From Marasmius tenuissimus (lineage: Eukaryota > Basidiomycota > Agaricomycetes > Agaricales > Marasmiaceae), in assembly GCA_029532415.1 (NCBI GenBank), contig JAQOTA010000055.1, positions 186,001-250,000 of the forward strand: a stretch of 64,000 nucleotides of DNA. Reading direction: 5' to 3'. The notes below the pieces were generated by a model, which worked only from the letters and a program-made list of their open reading frames with translations, did not search any database and had not been told where the DNA came from. Positions within the stretch are counted from its first letter, which is position 1. Each line of letters starts with the position of its first letter. The position numbers and the translations under genes were made by a program. Positions 8,112 to 59,100 of the stretch are shown here, piece after piece.

Positions 8112-9098
8112 TCAGAATTCAATGTTCAAAGTCATCTGTTGAGCAAGTGGTTGTAAGAGTTGAGTGATCTATCTAATCATTCGGACACATACCATATCAG
8201 TTGTACGCTCAACCTCCTTAGCGAAATCATCCGTAAACTCTCGCATCTCCACGAGCACCCGGTCTTTGCAATACGGACATTGTACCGCTTTCCTGAACGT
8301 CCTGTTCATGAGATCAGGATCCTTCACCGTGACTCCGCACGGCCGCTCCTGGAGTAACAACGCGGCATCCTGCATGTATTCCACCCACCACGACCGAGAC
8401 GGTATGTTTTGGTTGTCGTACCCGGTCACTATCTCCTCGTTCGAGCACTCAGGACACTCTCCACCCGCTCCAAACTTGATATACGACGCCATATCTATCC
8501 AACCGAACGCGGTAGCCATCGCTCGTGCGGCCTTTCCGCTTCTGTGATGATATTCGTGTAGTCGATGCAAGGCGGTAGCGGGGATGAGGTCTAGCTCTCT
8601 GACGAATCGACGAGGAACCAAGGGTTCTCTGAGCAACATCTTTGCGGCTTTTTGGACCTGATCGTGGAGTTTGAATTGCCACGCGATACAGTAGGAGCGA
8701 AGAGGTTCTGCAGCAATGAACGGATCGAACTGGATTACGATCCGCTTCACTACTCCTGTCATGTCGTATTTCGATGCCGGTTCGAGGACCAAGCGGATCT
8801 CATCGAGGGATTCGAGGATAGGGCAGTGAGCCGGATGACAGAACATCAACAGTTTCTCGATGGCCTTGCTGGATTCTGGCATTGGTACTATGGGTAGACC
8901 GTCGTGATTCTGGATAGCAGTAGAGCGGGGTTCTGGTTGCGGTAATGAGAACATTCCCTCGAAGAAAGGAGATGCGAATGAGAGAAGGGATTTGTACATC
9001 CTAAAGTCAACACCGTCAACTGTCCGAAGAATAACGTCTGCCTTGATATCGTTGAAGATGGAATTGACTAAAGACGTAGCTGAAGGTTCCACCTCCAT
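8112..9098 (-). CDS. BTB/POZ-domain protein with two CxxC pairs (309 aa)
   Basis: Two exons: 9098-8193 (302 codons) and 8135-8112 (eight codons including the stop), split by a 57-nt GTATGT...CAG intron. The N-terminal third is a BTB/POZ domain of the type expanded in mushrooms: ADVILRTVDGVDFRMYKSLL, then SFASPFFEGMF. A helical middle follows, then two cysteine pairs, CPEC and CPYC, that could bind zinc. BTB domains mediate dimerisation and often dock Cullin-3 ligases; the function of this fungal group is not established. The paralogue at 42179-43207 has the same architecture, the same 57-nt terminal intron and the same eight-codon last exon. Without splicing, the frame would run on six codons into the intron and stop. 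Confidence 0.85.
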
Positions 9099-19574: not shown

Positions 19575-21578
19575 CTACCCACCACGTTCGACGCTGTCTC
19601 TCTACCTCTACCTTCAATCCACGATCCGCAATATACGAGAAAAACGCTAGTGTGAATGCATTTGTTCATATTCATGAACCTCCGCCGTCATTAGAAGGAC
19701 AAACTTTCGAAACGACAACTCCTATTGCGAAATCGTTACAATGGACGACGGTTGCGGTGAAGGACAACATATGCACGTCGGATATGCCGACGACGTGCTC
19801 GTCTACTATGTTGGAAAGTGCGTACTTCTGCATCTCTGGTTCAGGAAATGTTATTGAGAGCTTTTGTAGACTTCACGTCGCCTTTTGACGCGACAGTCGT
19901 CAAGTTACTCAAAAACGCGGGTGCTGATATCGTTGGAAAGACCAACTGTGATGAATTTGGGATGGGGTATACTTCTGAGCTTGGCTGTTGGATGAAAGAC
20001 TGAGAACACAACATTGCAGTTCCATGAATACCCATTCAATTCACGGACCGGTTGTGAATCCATACCAAACCTCACAGTCAGCGAAATCTACATCATGGAG
20101 AAACCGCGAAAAACGAGTTGCAGGGGGGAGTTCTGGTGGTAGCGCAGCAGCAGTCGCAGCTGATATGTGTGATGTGTGCGTGATTCTACGTTTTCCGTCC
20201 ATCTACAAGTTCTTGAAGGTTGTAAATAGCGCGTTAGCTACCGATACGGGAGGCTCTATAAGATTGCCAGCTTCGTATTGCGGTGTCGTTGGTCTGAAAC
20301 CGTCGTATGGCCTCATCAGCAGGTGTGTTCTCTATGCCATGCATCTCGACAGGTTCTTATTCCAATCCTTCAATCCAGATACGGCGTAATATCGTATGCG
20401 GATAGCCTAGACTGCGTGGGACTCATGGCGAAGAGCATCTTCCAAGCAAGGCGTGCTTTCGGTGCGTGTTATTCTACTTGGGATCCTCACGAAAGAGTGC
20501 TGAAGCCGCGTGGGCCAGATATCCTCGACGTGCCGGACCCCGAGGATCCGACCTCAGTCTCGAAACACCTGAGAGAATCTGCGTCGAAGCTTTTGCGAGA
20601 TTCTTCGCCCTTGAACCAATCTTCCACGTCAGAACAGCCTAAGTTAAGAGTCGGTGTACCGCAAGTACGTCTTAATCGACAGCATTTACATCCTCACGTT
20701 AAGCTTTTCATTTCAAAGGAATATTTTGCACAAGAACTATCTCCGGTCGTCCAGAAATCTGTTCGAAAAGCCTTGCAAGCTCTCCAGAACCTAGGAGTCC
20801 AGATCATACCAGTCTCCCTTCCATCTACCTCTTACGCCCTCAGCGCGTATTATGTCCTTGCCAGCGCAGAAGCCAGCAGTAATCTGGCACGTTACGACGG
20901 AATCGAATACGGTGAGCCTTATGATCTAGATATGCTTGAATATACTTATGCCCCCCGTTTCTAGGTCTACGTGCAACACCTCCACCAGGTTCTGACTTAA
21001 CCAAGACATCGAAGGTCTACTCTCATACGCGAATCCAAGGCTTCGGAGATGAAGTTCGCAAACGGATTCTCCTAGGCACCTATTCACTCACCGCGGAGTA
21101 AGTCCTGATATCCAACCCTCATAACCTCGCCTTCTTTTAACCTTTCCCCCCTCTTTTCAGCGCTTTCGACAACTACTTCCTACAAGCCCAAAAAGTGCGA
21201 CAACTGGTCCGAAATGACTTTGATAGCGTGTTTCGGTGGCCCAATTTACGCGTCTCGACGTGTGAACCGACCGTCTCGATGGAGGGTGTAGACGTTTTGA
21301 TTCACCCTTCGACAATACGTACCGCGCCGCGTCTCCCGTCGATGGGCCAGAATAGCGTGGAATCGCTGGATACGTATCTGCAGGACGTATTGACGGTTCC
21401 TGCTTCTCTTGCTGGGCTACCGGTGTTGAATGTACCCGTTCCTGTGGAAACGGAGGATGACGCAGACGAAGCCGAGGAGTGGCCGATTGGGATAAGTATC
21501 GTAGGACAGTGGGGATGCGATAGGCTTGTCATGAATGTGGGGATTATTGCCGAAGCTGCGATGGCTGTGGGAGGTTAG
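19562..21578 (+). CDS. gatA: Mitochondrial glutamyl-tRNA(Gln) amidotransferase subunit A (543 aa)
   Basis: Eight exons (19562-19817, 19870-19966, 20020-20175, 20230-20322, 20379-20664, 20719-20911, 20965-21097, 21161-21578) sum to 1632 nt, 544 codons. The amidase signature is clear: [23 protein letters not shown], the Gly/Ser-rich [14 protein letters not shown] with the catalytic serines, and [23 protein letters not shown]. The catalytic Lys is in VKDN. The N-terminus [17 protein letters not shown] is basic and Ser/Thr rich, as expected for mitochondrial import. Role: with GatB and a GatC/F-type subunit it converts Glu-tRNA(Gln) to Gln-tRNA(Gln) in mitochondria. In the last exon a stretch after DFDSVFR (about 21220-21281) is unlike the family and could be an unspliced in-frame 57-nt intron. 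Confidence 0.92.
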
Positions 21579-32716: not shown

Positions 32717-33193
32717 ATGCACGCGCGAGTCTCTGCAACGGTAGAGAGATTTGAGCCACAGTATACTCATTGCTGACTCCTGTTCTCATCAGCAACAAGA
32801 AGCACGTATAAATGCATTGCAAGACGAGGCAGAAAGACTTGAGCGAGAACTCGGGCAAGTGTCTTTTCTTTCGTCATGACGTGACTTACATCTCGCTATA
32901 GGCCCGGAGAGGACGCAAGTAAGATTGTAGACAGTCATATCAAGCTTTTGCATCGTTATAATGAGGCAAAGGATGTGACTCAGGTGGGATGCTCTTGGCG
33001 TTTTTATTCGTCTGGGATTGACGACCAATGCTGCATGGTCTAGATGTTGATAGGAAGGGTGAGCTCGATCTGTGCTTCTCTCTTGTTCTCCTTTGCTGCT
33101 CCTTATTGCTTACAATGGACACAGCTCGCGAACATGAAAGAGACGACCGTACGCGAGATTCATCGAGAGCTGGGGCTACCAGAGACAGACTGA
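32717..33193 (+). CDS. swi5: Swi5-type recombination mediator (83 aa)
   Basis: Five exons (32717-32740, 32793-32854, 32902-32983, 33044-33058, 33125-33193) sum to 252 nt, 84 codons. An N-terminal coiled coil (INALQDEAERLERELG) leads into the conserved Swi5 core IVDSHIKLLHRYNEAKDV, then MLIGRLANMKETTVREIH and a C-terminal GL. Length matches Swi5 proteins (about 85 aa). Family knowledge: Swi5 pairs with Sfr1 to load and stabilise Rad51/Dmc1 filaments. The second intron starts with GC (GCAAGT, 32855) rather than GT; only this donor keeps the frame. The fourth exon has 15 nt. The first exon (MHARVSAT) is the least certain part. Confidence 0.85.
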
Positions 33194-33970: not shown

Positions 33971-36612
33971 ATGGCCAATTTGCACAAATCTCGCGGCTAT
34001 ATGGCCCTCGTCGGACACCATATTGACACCTTCGCATCCGATGCCGCTAACAATTCAGGATTAGAGGCAAGTCTATTGGATGCGCAGACGCCGTATCATG
34101 TTACAGTCATCACCAAAGAAGAGCTCAAAGGGATCTCAGAAGGCAGTCTCACCAACATACAAATCGATACGAAGCGCTTATTTCTCGCCGGAGTCGGTGG
34201 TAGCAAAAGCAAGGGGGTATATTTTGGTGTTGTGATCTGGGCAGAAGGTCAGCAACTCCGGAAGCGCTTGGGCCTACCGCCAAAGAATTTCCATATCACC
34301 TTGACAAGTCGTGATGACCATGACATAGACAAGGGAATCGACTCCTTGCTTCTTGATCAGTTTCCGGACAGCCCTTCTCCCGACTTCTTGGACCACCTAG
34401 CCTTTACTCTCCATCTCTTCGCTCAATACAGCAAGGCTCAGAATTATGCTGCGCGCTTGATAAAACTTCTTCCCGATTCTCACCGAGGATGCTTGAGGTA
34501 GGTCGGAATCTCCTTCGGATGTGGTACGCAACTCAATGTTCTAACAGGTTGGCGGACTCTGCATACTCAAATGCACAATACAAGCTGGCTCTTTTGTCCT
34601 ATGCCGCTGCTCACGACCGTTCTCATGACGATAAAGTTCAGAGATATTGTTTGAAGCGGCTCACGGCGTGTTCCAAGCACTCCGAGTGGGGCTGTGTCTT
34701 CCAGGAGTTCGAGATGAACCAATTAGTCGGCGGAACTGGATCCATGCTCTTTGAGCCATGGTCATCCCAGCTCCGATTTGCTCTCAGCGAGGACCCACCG
34801 GTACCTACGCTCTGCTTGGAACCACGGGATCACCTGTACCTTCCCAGGTTCACTAATACCTCGGCACTACAGTTCAGCAAGCTTCCCCGTTTCTTCCGAT
34901 GGATCATTCCGTATCACCTTGCAGTTATGTCCACACCTCGCAATGAACCCGATATCGACTTACTCTCTTCTATCGGTATTGAGCACGTCCTTACATTGAC
35001 GGAAGAGACTCCTTTACCAGAAACATGGTTTGCGAACAAGCCTATCACCAACACTTTCCTTCCTATCCCGAACTTTCATCCACCCTCCATTGAGCAGATG
35101 GACTTGGTCATGAGACTTGTGGAAGACGAGTCGAAGCTCCCTATGCTCGTGCATTGTGGTGGTGGCAAAGGTCGCGCAGGGACCGTGGTTGCCTGCTATC
35201 TTGCTGCATATGGCTTCAGCAAGCCCAAACCTGACCAGGATCATCCGGAAATGTCTGCGAAAGAGGCAGTTTCCACTCTTCGATCCCTCCGGCCTGGCAG
35301 TATAGAAACAACTCAGCAGGAAGATTTTGTATCCAAATGGTGTAGTACGATATGGAAACGACAGTCTATCTATCCAGAGCTTCCGTCGGAGCCTCCACCT
35401 TGTCCGATGGAGATCGAGGGACAGCTAACCAAAACAGCCGACTTGTTTGTTTTGGTCGGACTTCCCGGTTCAGGCAAGTCGTGGTTCTCCCGTTCTCTCA
35501 TCGTCAGGGACTCCAAGTCGTGGACCAGGATCTCTCAGGATGATAGCGGGAGCAGGTCGTCCTGCGAGACTGCGATCGGCCATGCCCAATCAGGAAGGGT
35601 ACTTTTGGACCGGTGCAATACGGCTGCAACAGACCGGAAGCTGTGGCTCGACCTTGCGTCCACTTGGGCCAAAAGCCCGGTCTGCGTGTGGTTTGATTAC
35701 GACGCGGACTTATGCACAGCTCGAGCTCAGATGCGAGCGGGACATCCCACCCTCCCGCCTGGGAGCCGCGTACGCAATGCGGTTAATCAGATGGGGAAAG
35801 CCTTCGTTCGACCTTCCTTGAAGGAGGGGTTCCAGGCCATCATCATCCTCCGTTCCTTCTCAGCTGTGCAAGAGCTTGTCTCGCGTCTATCCCCACCCGT
35901 CAACATCTACAAATTTCCCCGAACATCTCACATTATCAATCTTGGCGCAGCGACGGATGATGATCTATTAGTAGAATCAGACACGACCGTTTCACAGTCC
36001 GCCATGGGTGGGCACGTTGTGATCACCGAAAAAGTAGACGGGGCAAACATGGGCTTTTCCCTTTCCTCCGACCGTACACAAATCGTCGTCCAGAATAGGT
36101 CTCACTACGTCAACTCATCCAGTCACGAACAGTTCAAGAAGCTGGGTCTCTGGATTGAGCGTCACCGGGAGGACCTTTTTGCAGTTCTAGACCGCGATGA
36201 GCTATTCGCAGAACGGTACATTCTGTTTGGTGAATGGCTGTACGCTACTCATTCTATCCCTTATACTGGGCTTCCCGATCTTTTCATGGCATTTGATCTT
36301 TATGACCGGAGTACTGACACGTTCATCGATCGGAAGACGCTCACGTCTCTTCTGAAACCAACTGGGATTGCCATCGTTCCTGAGATATATGAAGGGCCCA
36401 TGGTGTCTTCAGATGATCTCAAGGCGATGGTTGAACGGCAATCAAACTTTTGGGATGGGAGGGTCGAAGGGATTTATGTCAAATGGGAGAAGGCCGGGAG
36501 GGTAATTAACCGCGGCAAGGTAGTCAGAGCGGATTTTATCGCGGGGAATGAACACTGGACAAGAGGGAATTTGCGCGCTAATGGACTATTACATCCCGAC
36601 GGCGCTGCGTAG
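33971..36612 (+). CDS. Multi-enzyme RNA repair protein: 2H phosphoesterase - phosphatase - kinase - RNA ligase (863 aa)
   Basis: Two exons (33971-34497, 34548-36612) sum to 2592 nt, 864 codons. Modules in order: a 2H phosphoesterase with paired H-x-T motifs (HVT at 43-45, HIT at 108-110), expected to open 2',3'-cyclic phosphates; a helical TPR-like linker (about 150-220); a DUSP23-like phosphatase with HCGGGKGRAGT (Cys379, Arg385); a P-loop kinase with GLPGSGKS at 480-487 and LLDRCNTAATDRKLWL, the polynucleotide-kinase style seen next to such ligases; and an Rnl2-family RNA ligase with EKVDGAN (Lys671 nucleotidyl-transfer site), FGEWLY, EGIYVKW and a GKVVRADF end, i.e. motifs I, IIIa, IV and V. 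All catalytic residues I can check are present. It resembles the multi-domain 'Swiss army knife' RNA repair proteins. In fungal tRNA ligase Trl1 the order is ligase-kinase-phosphoesterase, the reverse. RNA substrate is inferred. Confidence 0.85.
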
Positions 36613-41580: not shown

Positions 41581-42178
41581 TTTGAGTTTCAAAAAACGGA
41601 ATTAATGGACTGAGTTGGTGGTTGGTGACGACGACGAGCAGTCAAACGAATTTCGCGACTGGTGTCGGAAGGACCGGGAGCACGGGTAATCGTGAGAATT
41701 ATTACCATTTATGTATATAGCCTGGAATTTTTCCGCCACACAAATTCGACCAAGTTGGACACACTGTTGAAGTACTTACAAGTAGAAGCACAAAGCTGGC
41801 CTTCCAAGGTTCAATGTCACTATACTCTCGTTGAAGCATGAGATAGTCAGAGCGGGGTGCACTATGATAGCGTATCTATATGAACGTTACAAGAGGCTTC
41901 ATGTTTTCAATTGGCAATGTCCAATTCCTTCGGGCCCTCCACTGCCAGCTATTTACTTCGACACGTCAAGCTCCAATCGAAATCGTTCATACAACACAAC
42001 TGAGTGGATAAGCTATCGTCATTGTATTTTATCTGCACAACCCTGTGGCCTATTCAGGACTGGAGCCAGCATGACAACACAAATGTTGTTCCGATCTGCA
42101 CCAGGACAAATCCCCAGAAAAAGGTACATATTCGAGCAACAAAAGTGGGGCACAGAAAAACCTGACGCCCATCCCACA
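41581..42178. other. Divergent promoter region of QCR6 and the second BTB gene
   Basis: Non-coding. The BTB frame stays open upstream to 41831, but the extra residues resemble nothing in the paralogue, so I treat this as 5' leader. Confidence 0.5.
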
Positions 42179-43207
42179 ATGTCGGACGCACCAGATTCCC
42201 CACAACCCGGTGAGATCGTTGAGGTCCTCGACGCGCCATTCAACCATCCAGATGCCGATATTATCGTCCGCTCGACCACAAGCAACGTCGACTTTCCCGT
42301 CATCAAAGCTTTCTTATCCTTTGCGTCCCCGGTATGGCACGGGATACTGTCCATCCCAGTATCAAAGAGCTCGTGTGCGGACGAGGTGAAAGGAGACTTA
42401 CATGTCATCCCTTTCCAGGAGGACGCGGATACGCTCAAAATCCTGCTATGGTTGTGCTACCCTCCCCTTCCGACACCACCAACCCCAAAGGTGCCCAGTT
42501 TCGAGGCCGCTGCCCGTGTCTTTGAGGCTGCGAGGAAGTACTGCGTAGAAGGGGTGGAGAGGGTTATCATGGAACAATTAGTCCAAACCTTTTTGGAAAC
42601 AGAACCCCTCCGCCTGTTCGCGTTCTCTTGGCGGTTTGGGATGCAGGAGGAGATGAAGATGGCGGCAAAGAATACTCTTCGGGATTCCCTACTTGAACGG
42701 GAGTATGTCGAAGAACTGGAGTGGATATCTGCCGGAGCCTACCACCGCCTCCAACAGTACCACATCGAATGCGGAAAGCTGGCCAGCGTGCGTGCTGTCA
42801 ATATGAATTGGCTCTCCAAAGACACTTTCGTTTGGTTCGAATGTTCGGAGTGTTCGAGGAAGGAAGGGGCGACCTGGGTGGTGACTTTGGCGGAGAACCG
42901 TAACAAGTGGGTGTACTGTCGATGGTGGCGGAGGTTCATGACAGAGCTGAGTGAGGCGCTCAAAAAATCCCCATCCCGGGCGACTGTGGAGAGGAACCTC
43001 GAGCTCCTAGACGACACATTGTCCCAGGCCGCTATGAACTGCCACATATGCCGAACGAGAGCGTCCAAAGACTTGCGGGAGTTTCTGGAATTACTAGCGG
43101 ACCAGGTGGACATGGTCGGAGACACAGTAAGTCAGTTCAAGCTCTTCCGTATAGCGTTGGATGTTGACTTCGTTCAAATTCAGGTGGAGTTGAATATCCC
43201 AAAGTGA
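42179..43207 (+). CDS. BTB/POZ-domain protein with two CxxC pairs (323 aa), paralogue of 8112-9098
   Basis: Two exons, 42179-43126 and 43184-43207, separated by a 57-nt GTAAGT...TTCAG intron. The start at MSDAPDSPQPGE was chosen because the BTB domain begins about 30 residues later (ADIIVRSTTSNVDFPVIKAF, then SFASPVWHGIL). The helical middle and cysteine pairs CSEC and CHIC correspond to those of the first BTB protein, as do RLQQYH and the last exon (VELNIPK here, MTLNIEF there). Sequence divergence is high, so the duplication is old. The function of this family is not known; a dimerising adaptor is likely. It is flanked by genes for mitochondrial proteins but shows no targeting signal. Confidence 0.85.
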   Translation: MSDAPDSPQPGEIVEVLDAPFNHPDADIIVRSTTSNVDFPVIKAFLSFASPVWHGILSIPVSKSSCADEVKGDLHVIPFQEDADTLKILLWLCYPPLPTPPTPKVPSFEAAARVFEAARKYCVEGVERVIMEQLVQTFLETEPLRLFAFSWRFGMQEEMKMAAKNTLRDSLLEREYVEELEWISAGAYHRLQQYHIECGKLASVRAVNMNWLSKDTFVWFECSECSRKEGATWVVTLAENRNKWVYCRWWRRFMTELSEALKKSPSRATVERNLELLDDTLSQAAMNCHICRTRASKDLREFLELLADQVDMVGDTVSQFKLFRIALDVDFVQIQVELNIPK

Positions 43208-56600: not shown

Positions 56601-58041
56601 TGGCGGGCGTTTGGGTGTTCGCTCAAAGGCTGGCCAAGGGTCCACTTTCTGGGTTGAACTCCCGCTTGGAGTCGGGGCAAAGGCAGTTCTTCCGCCCGAC
56701 GAGTTCCCGGTGCCTGGAAATGTTTCTATGAACATCCCCAAAGACGCGGCTTTCACCGAACTCTACAAAGTTGCTAGTAGAGCTAGTCGCGGCGGTGGGT
56801 CAGTGCTCTCTACCGATAGCATGGTGGAGGTAGTTGATGCCGCTGCGAAACTCCGTGCCACGCAAACTTCCCCTCTCTCGTTGCGGTCTAGCTCCGCTTT
56901 GCACTCTCTGATGGACCAAGGTATGAGCATTGTCGATCTCCGGGAAACAACGTCTACATGTGTTGACCATGTGCTTTCTTGTAGGTGGTAGTGTCGAACT
57001 CAATCTATCGAAGTACGACTCTCATTCCCACGTTCCGACGAGGGCTATCGGAGATTCTTCAACCGGAACAGATGTTCCATTGACGGACTTAATCGTCGAT
57101 GCATCCCGCCAATCTGAAGCTGACTCAATACCAGCACATTCTATCCTTCGAGAACCCACACCTCCACCAACCTCATCACATGGCGACTCCACTTGCTTAC
57201 CCGCTCCCACCCCTCCTGCATCTCCCCGATTACTAACTCCTGCGACGACAACATCAGAAACAACTTCTAAACGGCCGCGTCCCAATTATGTTTCCCTTCC
57301 GAGCAGTTCTACAGCGCCTCCATTAGACCTCCCTGCGACTCCCGCTTCAACACTGGTCGCTTCGCCATTCAGAACCCCTTCTGTTCTTTTCGAAGCTCTG
57401 AATGTTCTGGTGGTGGATGATGACCCGATGACGCGAACACTTATGAAAAGATTGCTGGAGAGACTGGGCTGCAACGTAACAACCGCTGAAAACGGCGCAA
57501 TTGCTTTGAAGCTTTTGCTAAGCCAAGACGAGAGCACTCCTGGAGTGGAGACTGACGATTGGGATGGGGTGTCTGAGCGTCGAAACTCTGATTTATTGTC
57601 GAGGAATAAGTTCGCGTGCATCTTCTTGGACAATCAGATGCCGGTCATGTCGGGGCTGAAGGTCGTCGAGGAATTGCGGAAGGTTAGAGGTAGACGGGAT
57701 TTCGTCGTCGGGGTTACAGGTGGGTTGGAATCCTTTGTTTATTGAAGCTGACACACTAAACCTTTGTGATATTTGCTATTCAGGGAACGCGCTGATTACA
57801 GACCAGAAGGTGAATTCGAGTAATAAGTTTTTTTCAACCTTGTCATTGATCTGATTCGTAAACTCTGTTACAGGAATATCTGGACGCGGGCGCCGACCAG
57901 TGAGTTTACGTTTTACTAGACAATACCGTTAGTCAATCTTATTTGTCTAACAGTGTTCTAACCAAACCTGTACTGGAGCGGAGCCTGAAGAGTATGCTTC
58001 ATCTCGCGGACGAGCGTCGTAAACAGGGTTCGTATCATTGA
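53640..58041 (+). CDS. Membrane hybrid histidine kinase with receiver domain
   Basis: A multi-exon gene. After a polar N-terminus come several hydrophobic helices (ALVSSMFFIVNWILGVTLI, VLSIPLVLMCAYNW, LLGAIAFFVMCAIL, FIVFEGFLLYV), then a histidine kinase core: H-box FHEVRVPLNTA (His at 55285-55287), N-box NACKFTPAGG, G1 DTGSGI and G2 GKGTGLGLALV. A long Ser/Pro-rich linker leads to a receiver domain: LNVLVVDDDPMTRTLMKRLL, phospho-acceptor Asp in FLDNQMPVMSG (57629-57631) and the Lys of LTKPV near 57970. All catalytic motifs are present. It would start a His-Asp phosphorelay towards Ypd1 and Ssk1/Skn7-type regulators; the signal is unknown. Start is uncertain: ATG 53640 is used, with 53562 in the same frame. 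Stop TGA 58039-58041. Confidence 0.85.
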
Positions 58042-58403
58042 GGACTTACGGTTTTCATCTTTCCATCGCTTCATTTACCACTTATTTTTCGTTCCACCTA
58101 TCATCTCATCCAGGATCCCTATTTTCACTTGTATATGTACTCATACTGTATCACTAGAGATCTATTCTACATTTATTTGCTTGCACATCTTTCGATCCTT
58201 AATCTGACCGTCGCCATTCTCTTGGACTCGTATTTTATTCACGGACATATAATGCATCTTAATGGTCTGGAATTTTCGCGTAGTGCGTCTCTCGGAAGGA
58301 ATGGCCCTAAGGTTGTGTATTACATATGGCATTGGCATACAATCATAAGAACCACAAAGAGGAAGACGCAAGGAAAGGCGCGGTGAAGGTGGGGCGAAAC
58401 AGT
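58042..58403. other. Convergent 3' region
   Basis: AT-rich 3' flanks of the histidine kinase and uL5 genes, with no coding evidence. Confidence 0.5.
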
Positions 58404-59100
58404 TTATTTCTGCGTGAGTAAGAAAATAAGAAGTTTGAGCCAGCGAAATTAGTTTCGATACTCACGAGGATGATACCGTCAAATCTCTGCTTGAACCAGG
58501 CCATGGTGTCCTCCTTTTTTATGCGGTGTTGGAAGCCCACACGAGCCTTCTTCTGCTTTCTCTTTGCAACTCGTCCTCCCGGTCGTCCCATGACGACGTA
58601 GAAGTCCATACCGAAGATACCAATCTGGGGGTCATATCGGGCACCGAGATCGATGTGTTCTTGAATACCAAAACCGAAGTTGCCAGTCTCCGAGAAGTTC
58701 CTCCGTCTCAACTCGTATTCCTTGACTTTCAGACCACGCTCAAGGATTTCTTCGGCTTTGGGCCCGCGAATGGTGACATGAACCGCGATTTTCTCGTTCC
58801 TTCGGATACCGAAAGTTCGGACAGTGTAGCGGGCCTTGCTGGTAACGGGGGTCTGACCGGTGAGCTGTTCCAGGACCTTCGAGGCTCTGGTAAGACGATC
58901 ACCAGATTCACCGACGGAGATGTCTTTAGAAAACGTATCAGTATTCAGGCTGAGCGATAACCTGAAGTGAGACGCACTGATGACCAGCTTATCAATCCTG
59001 GGCTCCTTCATAGGGTTCGTGGGCGCGGTCTTCTGGTCGGCCTGTAGATCATAATCTCAGCATTGCAATGACGAGCAGTAATTTCATTGACGCTGACCAT
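58404..59100 (-). CDS. RPL11: 60S ribosomal protein uL5 (L11), 176 aa
   Basis: Four exons, 59100-59098, 59041-58978, 58923-58466 and 58409-58404, sum to 531 nt, 177 codons. The first coding exon is only the ATG and the last is AAA TAA. Sequence: [98 protein letters not shown]. Role: large-subunit protein at the central protuberance that binds 5S rRNA. Splicing right after the start codon is common in fungal ribosomal protein genes. Confidence 0.95.

Follow-up and report, generated by a model that had tools for sequence, protein, structure and literature searches.

A Swiss Army Knife protein of Marasmius tenuissimus with predicted RNA end-healing and sealing domains

Can one fungal polypeptide carry the domains of a complete RNA break-repair pathway? 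The question is raised by a gene in a stretch of 64,000 nucleotides of contig JAQOTA010000055.1 from M. tenuissimus (hereafter the window), where an earlier interpretation made from the letters alone (the sequence-only reading) had placed paired HxT motifs, a cysteine phosphatase site, a P-loop kinase and an Rnl2-type ligase in a single chain of 863 residues.

Gene structure and domain layout

Among the GT-AG pairs tried between positions 34440 and 34639, one (34498-34547) joins both open reading frames into an open frame of 863 amino acids, and the spliced product shows 100% identity with the database entry "hypothetical protein PM082_011155 [Marasmius tenuissimus]". The two-exon frame and this identity bear out the single chain of the sequence-only reading, and the motifs lie where it had put them, including CGGGKGR at residues 379-385, GLPGSGKS at 480-487 and KVDG with K671 (Table 1). 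The profile searches that had been proposed as a check (2H, DSP, AAA_33/PNK and RNA_ligase) gave matches far beyond chance for all four enzymes, with scores of 201 bits for PTP-SAK and 80 bits for 2H-SAK against a Pfam cut-off of 27 in both cases. Structure prediction with AlphaFold2 (mean pLDDT 94.2, pTM 0.88) agreed with the assignments of the phosphatase (PTP), kinase and ligase.

Table 1. Position of the gene and of its predicted domains and sites in the window.
Feature	Position	Strand	Residues	Basis or remark
Exon 1	33971..34497	+	1-175 and part of 176	
Intron, 50 nt, GTAGGTCG...TCTAACAG	34498..34547	+		GT-AG; spliced protein equals deposited protein
Exon 2, through stop codon	34548..36612	+		
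2H phosphoesterase domain (2H-SAK)	33995..34321	+	9-117	Pfam PF22547, 2e-22; HVT 43-45 and HIT 108-110
Helical TPR-like linker, five helices, spans intron	34379..34671	+	137-217	AlphaFold model
Cysteine phosphatase domain (PTP-SAK)	34885..35331	+	289-437	Pfam PF22784, 1.2e-59
Asn351, at place of DUSP23 WPD-loop acid Asp65	35071..35073	+	351	Alignment
PTP P-loop (CGGGKGR), then Ala386	35155..35175	+	379-385	C379 and R385 in 148/148
Glu429, matching DUSP23 Glu134, proposed as general acid	35305..35307	+	429	148/148; alignment
P-loop polynucleotide-kinase-like domain	35431..35892	+	471-624	Pfam AAA_33, 1.3e-9
Walker A GLPGSGKS	35458..35481	+	480-487	K486 in 148/148
Compact RNA ligase (nucleotidyltransferase) domain	35896..36594	+	626-858	Pfam RNA_ligase, 4.5e-33; structure matches
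Lys671, predicted AMP-accepting lysine, motif I (EKVDGAN)	36031..36033	+	671	148/148

The modelled TPR-like helices between the 2H and PTP domains were absent from the sequence-only reading. A family profile of this linker matched an engineered TPR chain with a whole-chain E-value of 3.9e-10, yet no single stretch fell below 0.1, and the match to Pfam TPR_14 reached only 0.019. A single-sequence search of the 2H part against the PDB returned no relative; the structure search with the whole model barely covered the 2H and linker parts, and the missing 2H match there carries no weight. The kinase was closest to fungal kinases and polynucleotide kinases and resembles mammalian PNKP. It shows the Walker A motif, the conserved acidic residue D507 and the PNK fold of Pnkp-type kinases, with the role of D507 assumed by analogy.

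Directly upstream of the gene lies a Swi5 homologue with several exons (about 32795-33193, forward strand; Pfam Swi5 at 2.8e-22 for a fragment assembled by eye). Elsewhere in the window we observed a ribosomal protein L5/uL5 family gene (58343-59011, reverse strand), a possible housekeeping marker, and two BTB-type proteins that look similar by eye (8169-9098, reverse strand, and 41831-43207, forward strand), of which the first alone clears the 1e-5 threshold for Pfam BTB. An open reading frame at 56930-57745 (forward strand) matches the first part of a response regulator receiver domain (1.1e-13) and probably forms one exon of the gene for a larger two-component protein, and an amidase fragment (2.1e-17) is located at 20278-20964 on the forward strand.

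Membership, spread and conservation of the SAK family

The protein is an ordinary member of the named "Swiss Army Knife" (SAK) family, and no difference from the family was found. Its architecture is not new, since Pfam already has the 2H-SAK and PTP-SAK families; the name is said to come, probably, from a paper by Burroughs and Aravind of 2023. A literature search by name and topic, which covered mostly papers outside subscription journals, showed no functional study of SAK among the results listed.

Three protein searches, from which the best 120 of 647, 586 and 371 matches were listed, yielded 280 distinct proteins. Scanned with domain profiles built from the SAK family itself, which also served for the identity and flank scans, all 152 proteins of 780 or more residues among the matches listed have the order 2H-PTP-kinase-ligase, although in two of them one domain appears as two partial matches. 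The proposed survey for the fusion thus found at least 152 proteins with this order. The domain order and the phosphatase partner, which the sequence-only reading had called unusual, do differ from Trl1, but they are common to the listed full-length members of a family that already has a name.

Named members among the matches listed are fungi of three phyla, green algae and bdelloid rotifers. Those with the Pfam 2H-SAK domain include many Agaricomycetes, Tilletia, the ascomycetes Myriangium, Bisporella and Pseudogymnoascus, two green algae (Trebouxia and Apatococcus) and the rotifers Rotaria and Adineta. Lineages were looked up for Pseudogymnoascus, Apatococcus, Kwoniella, Tilletia and Sorochytrium. 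The Sorochytrium protein (Blastocladiomycota) has the length of a SAK protein and a 2H match to the family profile, but neither a Pfam 2H-SAK match nor an intact motif pair. No 2H part was recognised in the proteins found from oomycetes, Aureobasidium and Kwoniella, some of which came from a length-limited search. That search was also the source of the short rotifer rows, and the idea of rotifer members without 2H was rejected, as the full-length rotifer proteins carry the domain. Annotation of the family matters because many homologues are labelled "ATP dependent DNA ligase", others "dna ligase iii" and one "Dual specificity protein phosphatase 23". A fusion of another kind, in which two RNA_ligase domains flank a kinase, was seen in a eukaryote transcriptome record (P0228).

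In a quick LG+G4 tree with SH-aLRT support only, built from 67 rows chosen from a 98-row alignment, the ascomycete Pseudogymnoascus grouped with Coprinopsis (SH-aLRT 96), the tremellomycete Kwoniella fell inside the Agaricales (92-93), and the rotifers and two unnamed rows made up a single clade (100) that adjoined the Agaricomycetes (81). Contamination is unlikely for Pseudogymnoascus and Kwoniella, because the longest contigs behind these members exceed 1 Mb. With SH-aLRT as its support, the tree suggests, short of proof, horizontal transfer of SAK, including between fungal groups, and we consider these likely transfers a new point.

Conservation was assessed in the 148 proteins of 781-959 residues among the 280 retrieved, a set that includes the M. 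tenuissimus protein and leaves out 128 shorter and 4 longer ones. All 148 have C379, R385, K486, D507, K671, E738, E816 and K833. In the 2H domain, an intact pair of HxT/S motifs is found in 118 proteins, among them the M. tenuissimus protein and three named full-length rotifer proteins; in the other 30 the motifs are altered or missing, and a near full-length 2H match is still found in 23 of these. A residue other than His occupies a catalytic His position in 22 of the 148, and in all three Auriculariales rows both motifs are changed. Some of the losses may reflect poor gene models, such as the algal ones. Across 3000 random pairs, identity averaged 0.41 in the 2H domain and 0.40 in the linker, as compared to 0.65 for the PTP and 0.60 for both the kinase and the ligase. 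The contrast therefore points to a fixed PTP-kinase-ligase core, next to which intact 2H motifs can be lost, and given the 30 proteins with changed motifs, the opening of cyclic phosphates would not always be supplied in cis. We consider this asymmetry between core and 2H to be new.

The cysteine phosphatase and the compact ligase

The assignment of a DUSP23-like phosphatase held up: the domain has an HCX5R P-loop, and its closest relatives in both sequence and structure are DUSP23 and archaeal PTPs. The WPD-loop Asp and the P-loop Ser/Thr of DUSP23/VHZ were, however, not found in the SAK PTP. In five PDB alignments (25xa, two DUSP23 chains, ShufPTP and Tk-PTP), Asn351 takes the place of the Asp, and Ala386 that of the Ser/Thr that follows the P-loop Arg. 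Asn351 is present in 144 of the 147 rows with a letter at this place (Asp in the other 3) and Ala386 in 147 of 148 SAK proteins, whereas Glu429, aligned with Glu134 of DUSP23, is invariant. Lys383 in the P-loop is found in 147 of 148 proteins, and in 88 of 98 rows of a more diverse alignment, with Val in 8. In DUSP23, the remote Glu134 serves as primary general acid, with Asp65 subservient to it, and RNA triphosphatases such as MCE1 and PIR1/DUSP11 are described as having no WPD motif (PMC9038691). The SAK PTP probably uses Glu429 alone as its acid. With the canonical Asp and the P-loop Ser/Thr missing, turnover may therefore be slow or the substrate a different one; an anhydride, such as a 5'-triphosphate, is possible. 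We consider the altered chemistry predicted around an invariant Glu429 to be new, and it poses the chemical question of how a cysteine phosphatase turns over when Asn occupies the WPD site and the Arg of the P-loop is followed by Ala.

The ligase shows the features of Rnl2/Rnl5-type enzymes in its nucleotidyltransferase fold and in motifs I (KxDG) and III-V, to which we take E738, E816 and K833 to belong and which are present in all 148 proteins. Foldseek matched it to a Naegleria RNA ligase (6.9e-8), to T4 Rnl2 (5.9e-7) and also to REL1. A single-sequence search of the ligase part against the PDB gave chance matches only, mostly to calcium-binding proteins and none to a ligase, and a profile that includes prokaryotic relatives also matched PDB chains deposited as DNA ligase (e.g., 3qwu). 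Rnl2 has an additional C-terminal domain and Rnl5 an OB domain; the SAK ligase has neither, and its chain ends 27 residues past R836 of motif V. The Rnl2-type label of the sequence-only reading is thus sustained by motifs, fold and the RNA_ligase match, but goes no further than the nucleotidyltransferase core.

The ligase domain (residues 626-858) and standalone prokaryotic proteins align over their full lengths, with 36-42% identity in the six compared. A pattern scan gave at least 538 confirmed prokaryotic loci, of which the best 80 were analysed with flanks of up to 5 kb on each side. In 60 of these 80, the open reading frame spans 225-262 codons from stop to stop; the rest are longer, and one has 1215. 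As these compact relatives likewise have no C-terminal domain, its absence is a subfamily trait rather than a truncation. In a quick LG+G4 tree of 112 rows with SH-aLRT support only, one branch (95) separates 25 chosen SAK ligases from 87 prokaryotic and viral ones, consistent with a single fusion, and we regard the origin of the SAK ligase from compact ligases, as suggested by these comparisons, as a new point.

The ligase part was matched in the best 80 of the at least 538 prokaryotic loci, where no PTP or 2H profile match was obtained at E<=0.01, flanks included, and the same holds for PTP and 2H in 80 of 91 viral loci. A kinase-like open reading frame was nearby in 1 of the 80 prokaryotic and 18 of the 80 viral loci. 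A viral scan with a single sequence found nothing. Recent import of the whole gene from bacteria was rejected on the strength of these loci; a four-domain prokaryotic homologue should outrank them, but a pattern scan can miss one, which limits this rejection. The loci L016, L017, L031 and other prokaryotic ones represent a widespread compact ligase family, three tested proteins of which match only TIGR01209, far below its cut-off, and which deserves a name of its own. At viral loci such as L103, L104, L148, L150 and L168, a SAK-like kinase frame lies near the ligase frame, as in T4-type repair.

Proposed role and comparison with known systems

Profile searches of the M. tenuissimus genome (71 Mb, 70 contigs) located a Trl1 gene on contig 21, with PF09511 (in three stretches) and PF08302 at one locus, that is, ligase and CPD matches. 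Tpt1-family (PTS_2-RNA) matches were found at two places 13 kb apart on contig 12, 1103677-1104455 and 1116489-1117282 (L005-L009), the second of which is read through stop codons and possibly contains introns or is a decayed copy. The RtcB profile had no match in this genome. The SAK gene is the only match to the 2H-SAK and RNA_ligase families; to PTP-SAK it matches at 1.4e-59, with four other places no better than 1.2e-8. With Trl1 and Tpt1-family loci in the same genome, SAK therefore looks accessory to tRNA splicing.

We think it probable that SAK is an RNA end-healing and sealing protein, accessory to Trl1/Tpt1 and fit for RNA damage such as that inflicted by ribonuclease toxins. The gene, its domains, three domain folds, the conserved sites and the distribution are observations; the catalytic steps, substrate and biological role set out here we infer. 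The 2H domain would open 2',3'-cyclic phosphate ends, and the VHZ/DUSP23-type phosphatase, using Cys379 and Arg385 and probably Glu429 as acid, would strip the remaining 2' (or 3') monophosphate to leave a diol. The kinase would phosphorylate the 5'-OH end, and the compact Rnl2/Rnl5-like ligase would adenylate Lys671 and seal the 3'-OH to the 5'-phosphate, giving a junction without the 2'-phosphate expected from Trl1. The most likely role is repair of RNA cut to 2',3'-cyclic-phosphate and 5'-OH ends, perhaps by ribonuclease toxins, and the patchy, probably horizontal spread fits such a use. In a study of rotifers, horizontally acquired RNA ligase genes were among the most upregulated under fungal attack and not enriched in desiccation, and its authors suggest ribotoxin damage; the top matches of these genes were bacterial or phage RNA ligases, and PF09414 was also analysed (PMC11258130). 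Since these top matches, as given there, are not fungal, the rotifer genes may not be SAK. The Pfam accession given for the main set of that study we take to denote a 2H-type family.

Other readings place the activity elsewhere. The 2H domain might mainly bind RNA or have a structural role, with cyclic phosphates opened in trans (e.g., by the CPD of Trl1) and PTP-kinase-ligase as the engine, in line with the low conservation of 2H and linker, the replaced catalytic His residues and the double changes in Auriculariales. We regard this as unlikely in view of the motif pairs kept in 118 of the 148 proteins, those of M. tenuissimus and of three named full-length rotifer members included, and of gene-model errors that may explain some losses. 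That the PTP is an RNA 5'-triphosphatase, with ligation of RNA carrying a 5'-triphosphate in addition to RNA with a 5'-OH, is distinctly unlikely. Acid catalysis matters less when the leaving group is an anhydride, and Lys383 would suit a polyanionic substrate. The canonical acid is replaced by Asn351, and it is also described as missing from MCE1 and PIR1/DUSP11 (PMC9038691). Set against this are the invariance of Glu429, the counterpart of the primary acid of DUSP23, the change of Lys383 to Val in 8 of 98 rows, the closest relatives (DUSP23 and archaeal PTPs), and the presence in this chain of a kinase that would act on 5'-OH ends, which points to cleavage products.

A housekeeping ligase for the splicing of tRNA or HAC1-type mRNA, backing up or replacing Trl1, would find in SAK domains for all the activities that such joining needs, but the presence of Trl1 and Tpt1-family loci and a patchy family, whose tree positions suggest horizontal transfer and are unlike those of a core gene, make this very improbable. 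Action on DNA ends or nicks, as stated in the annotations, hardly deserves credence: the kinase does resemble mammalian PNKP, the ligase profile also matches 3qwu and a Swi5 recombination gene lies just upstream, but the ligase matches Pfam RNA_ligase and is structurally like RNA ligases, it is hard to see what a 2H domain would do on DNA, and gene neighbours mean little in a fungus.

The reading of SAK as an accessory RNA repair protein can be extended, tentatively and with more doubt than belief, to a single-gene antidote against toxins that cut RNA, one that would have spread by horizontal transfer among fungi as well as between them and bdelloid rotifers, and whose Glu429-based PTP would be an NAD-independent RNA 2'-phosphatase that leaves an unmarked junction, separate from Trl1/Tpt1. 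If true, many mushrooms and some ascomycetes, algae and rotifers would hold a self-contained RNA break-repair enzyme, which, at least in the M. tenuissimus genome, would exist besides the tRNA-splicing ligase. It would also offer a single recombinant protein for joining RNA cut by RNases or toxins and a tractable test of eukaryotic RNA repair as defence.

A known parallel in a single chain is Trl1, which has the order ligase-kinase-phosphoesterase; the order in SAK is reversed relative to it, as the sequence-only reading had said. No match of the SAK protein to PF09511, PF08302 or PF08303 (RNA_lig_T4_1, tRNA_lig_CPD and tRNA_lig_kinase) was listed at E<=1, and a rearranged Trl1 was rejected, as the two share no Pfam families. 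SAK has an additional cysteine phosphatase, and no 2'-phosphate is expected at its junction. Compared with DUSP23/VHZ, it has Asn351 for Asp65 and Ala386 for the P-loop Thr, and its phosphatase is fused to RNA enzymes; the compact prokaryotic ligases share the ligase domain but, in the best 80 loci, no neighbouring PTP or 2H. The bacterial Pnkp1-Rnl-Hen1 system we take, as a whole, not to be homologous to SAK. It heals and seals ribotoxin-cut RNA as a heterohexamer of three proteins (PMC4411300), in contrast to the one chain of SAK. Trl1/AtRNL combines ligase, kinase and 2H-type phosphoesterase activities in one polypeptide, as predicted for SAK, while the CPD of yeast and plants leaves a 2'-phosphate and T4 Pnkp a diol (PMC3400036). 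T4 Pnkp and Rnl1/Rnl2, as that text describes them, heal ends to a diol and a 5'-phosphate before 3'-OH/5'-phosphate sealing, the course proposed here for SAK, but they do so as separate proteins and with a DxDxT-type phosphatase (PMC3400036) in place of 2H and a cysteine PTP. By this analogy, SAK appears to give fungi an encoded path of their own to a diol of the T4 type.
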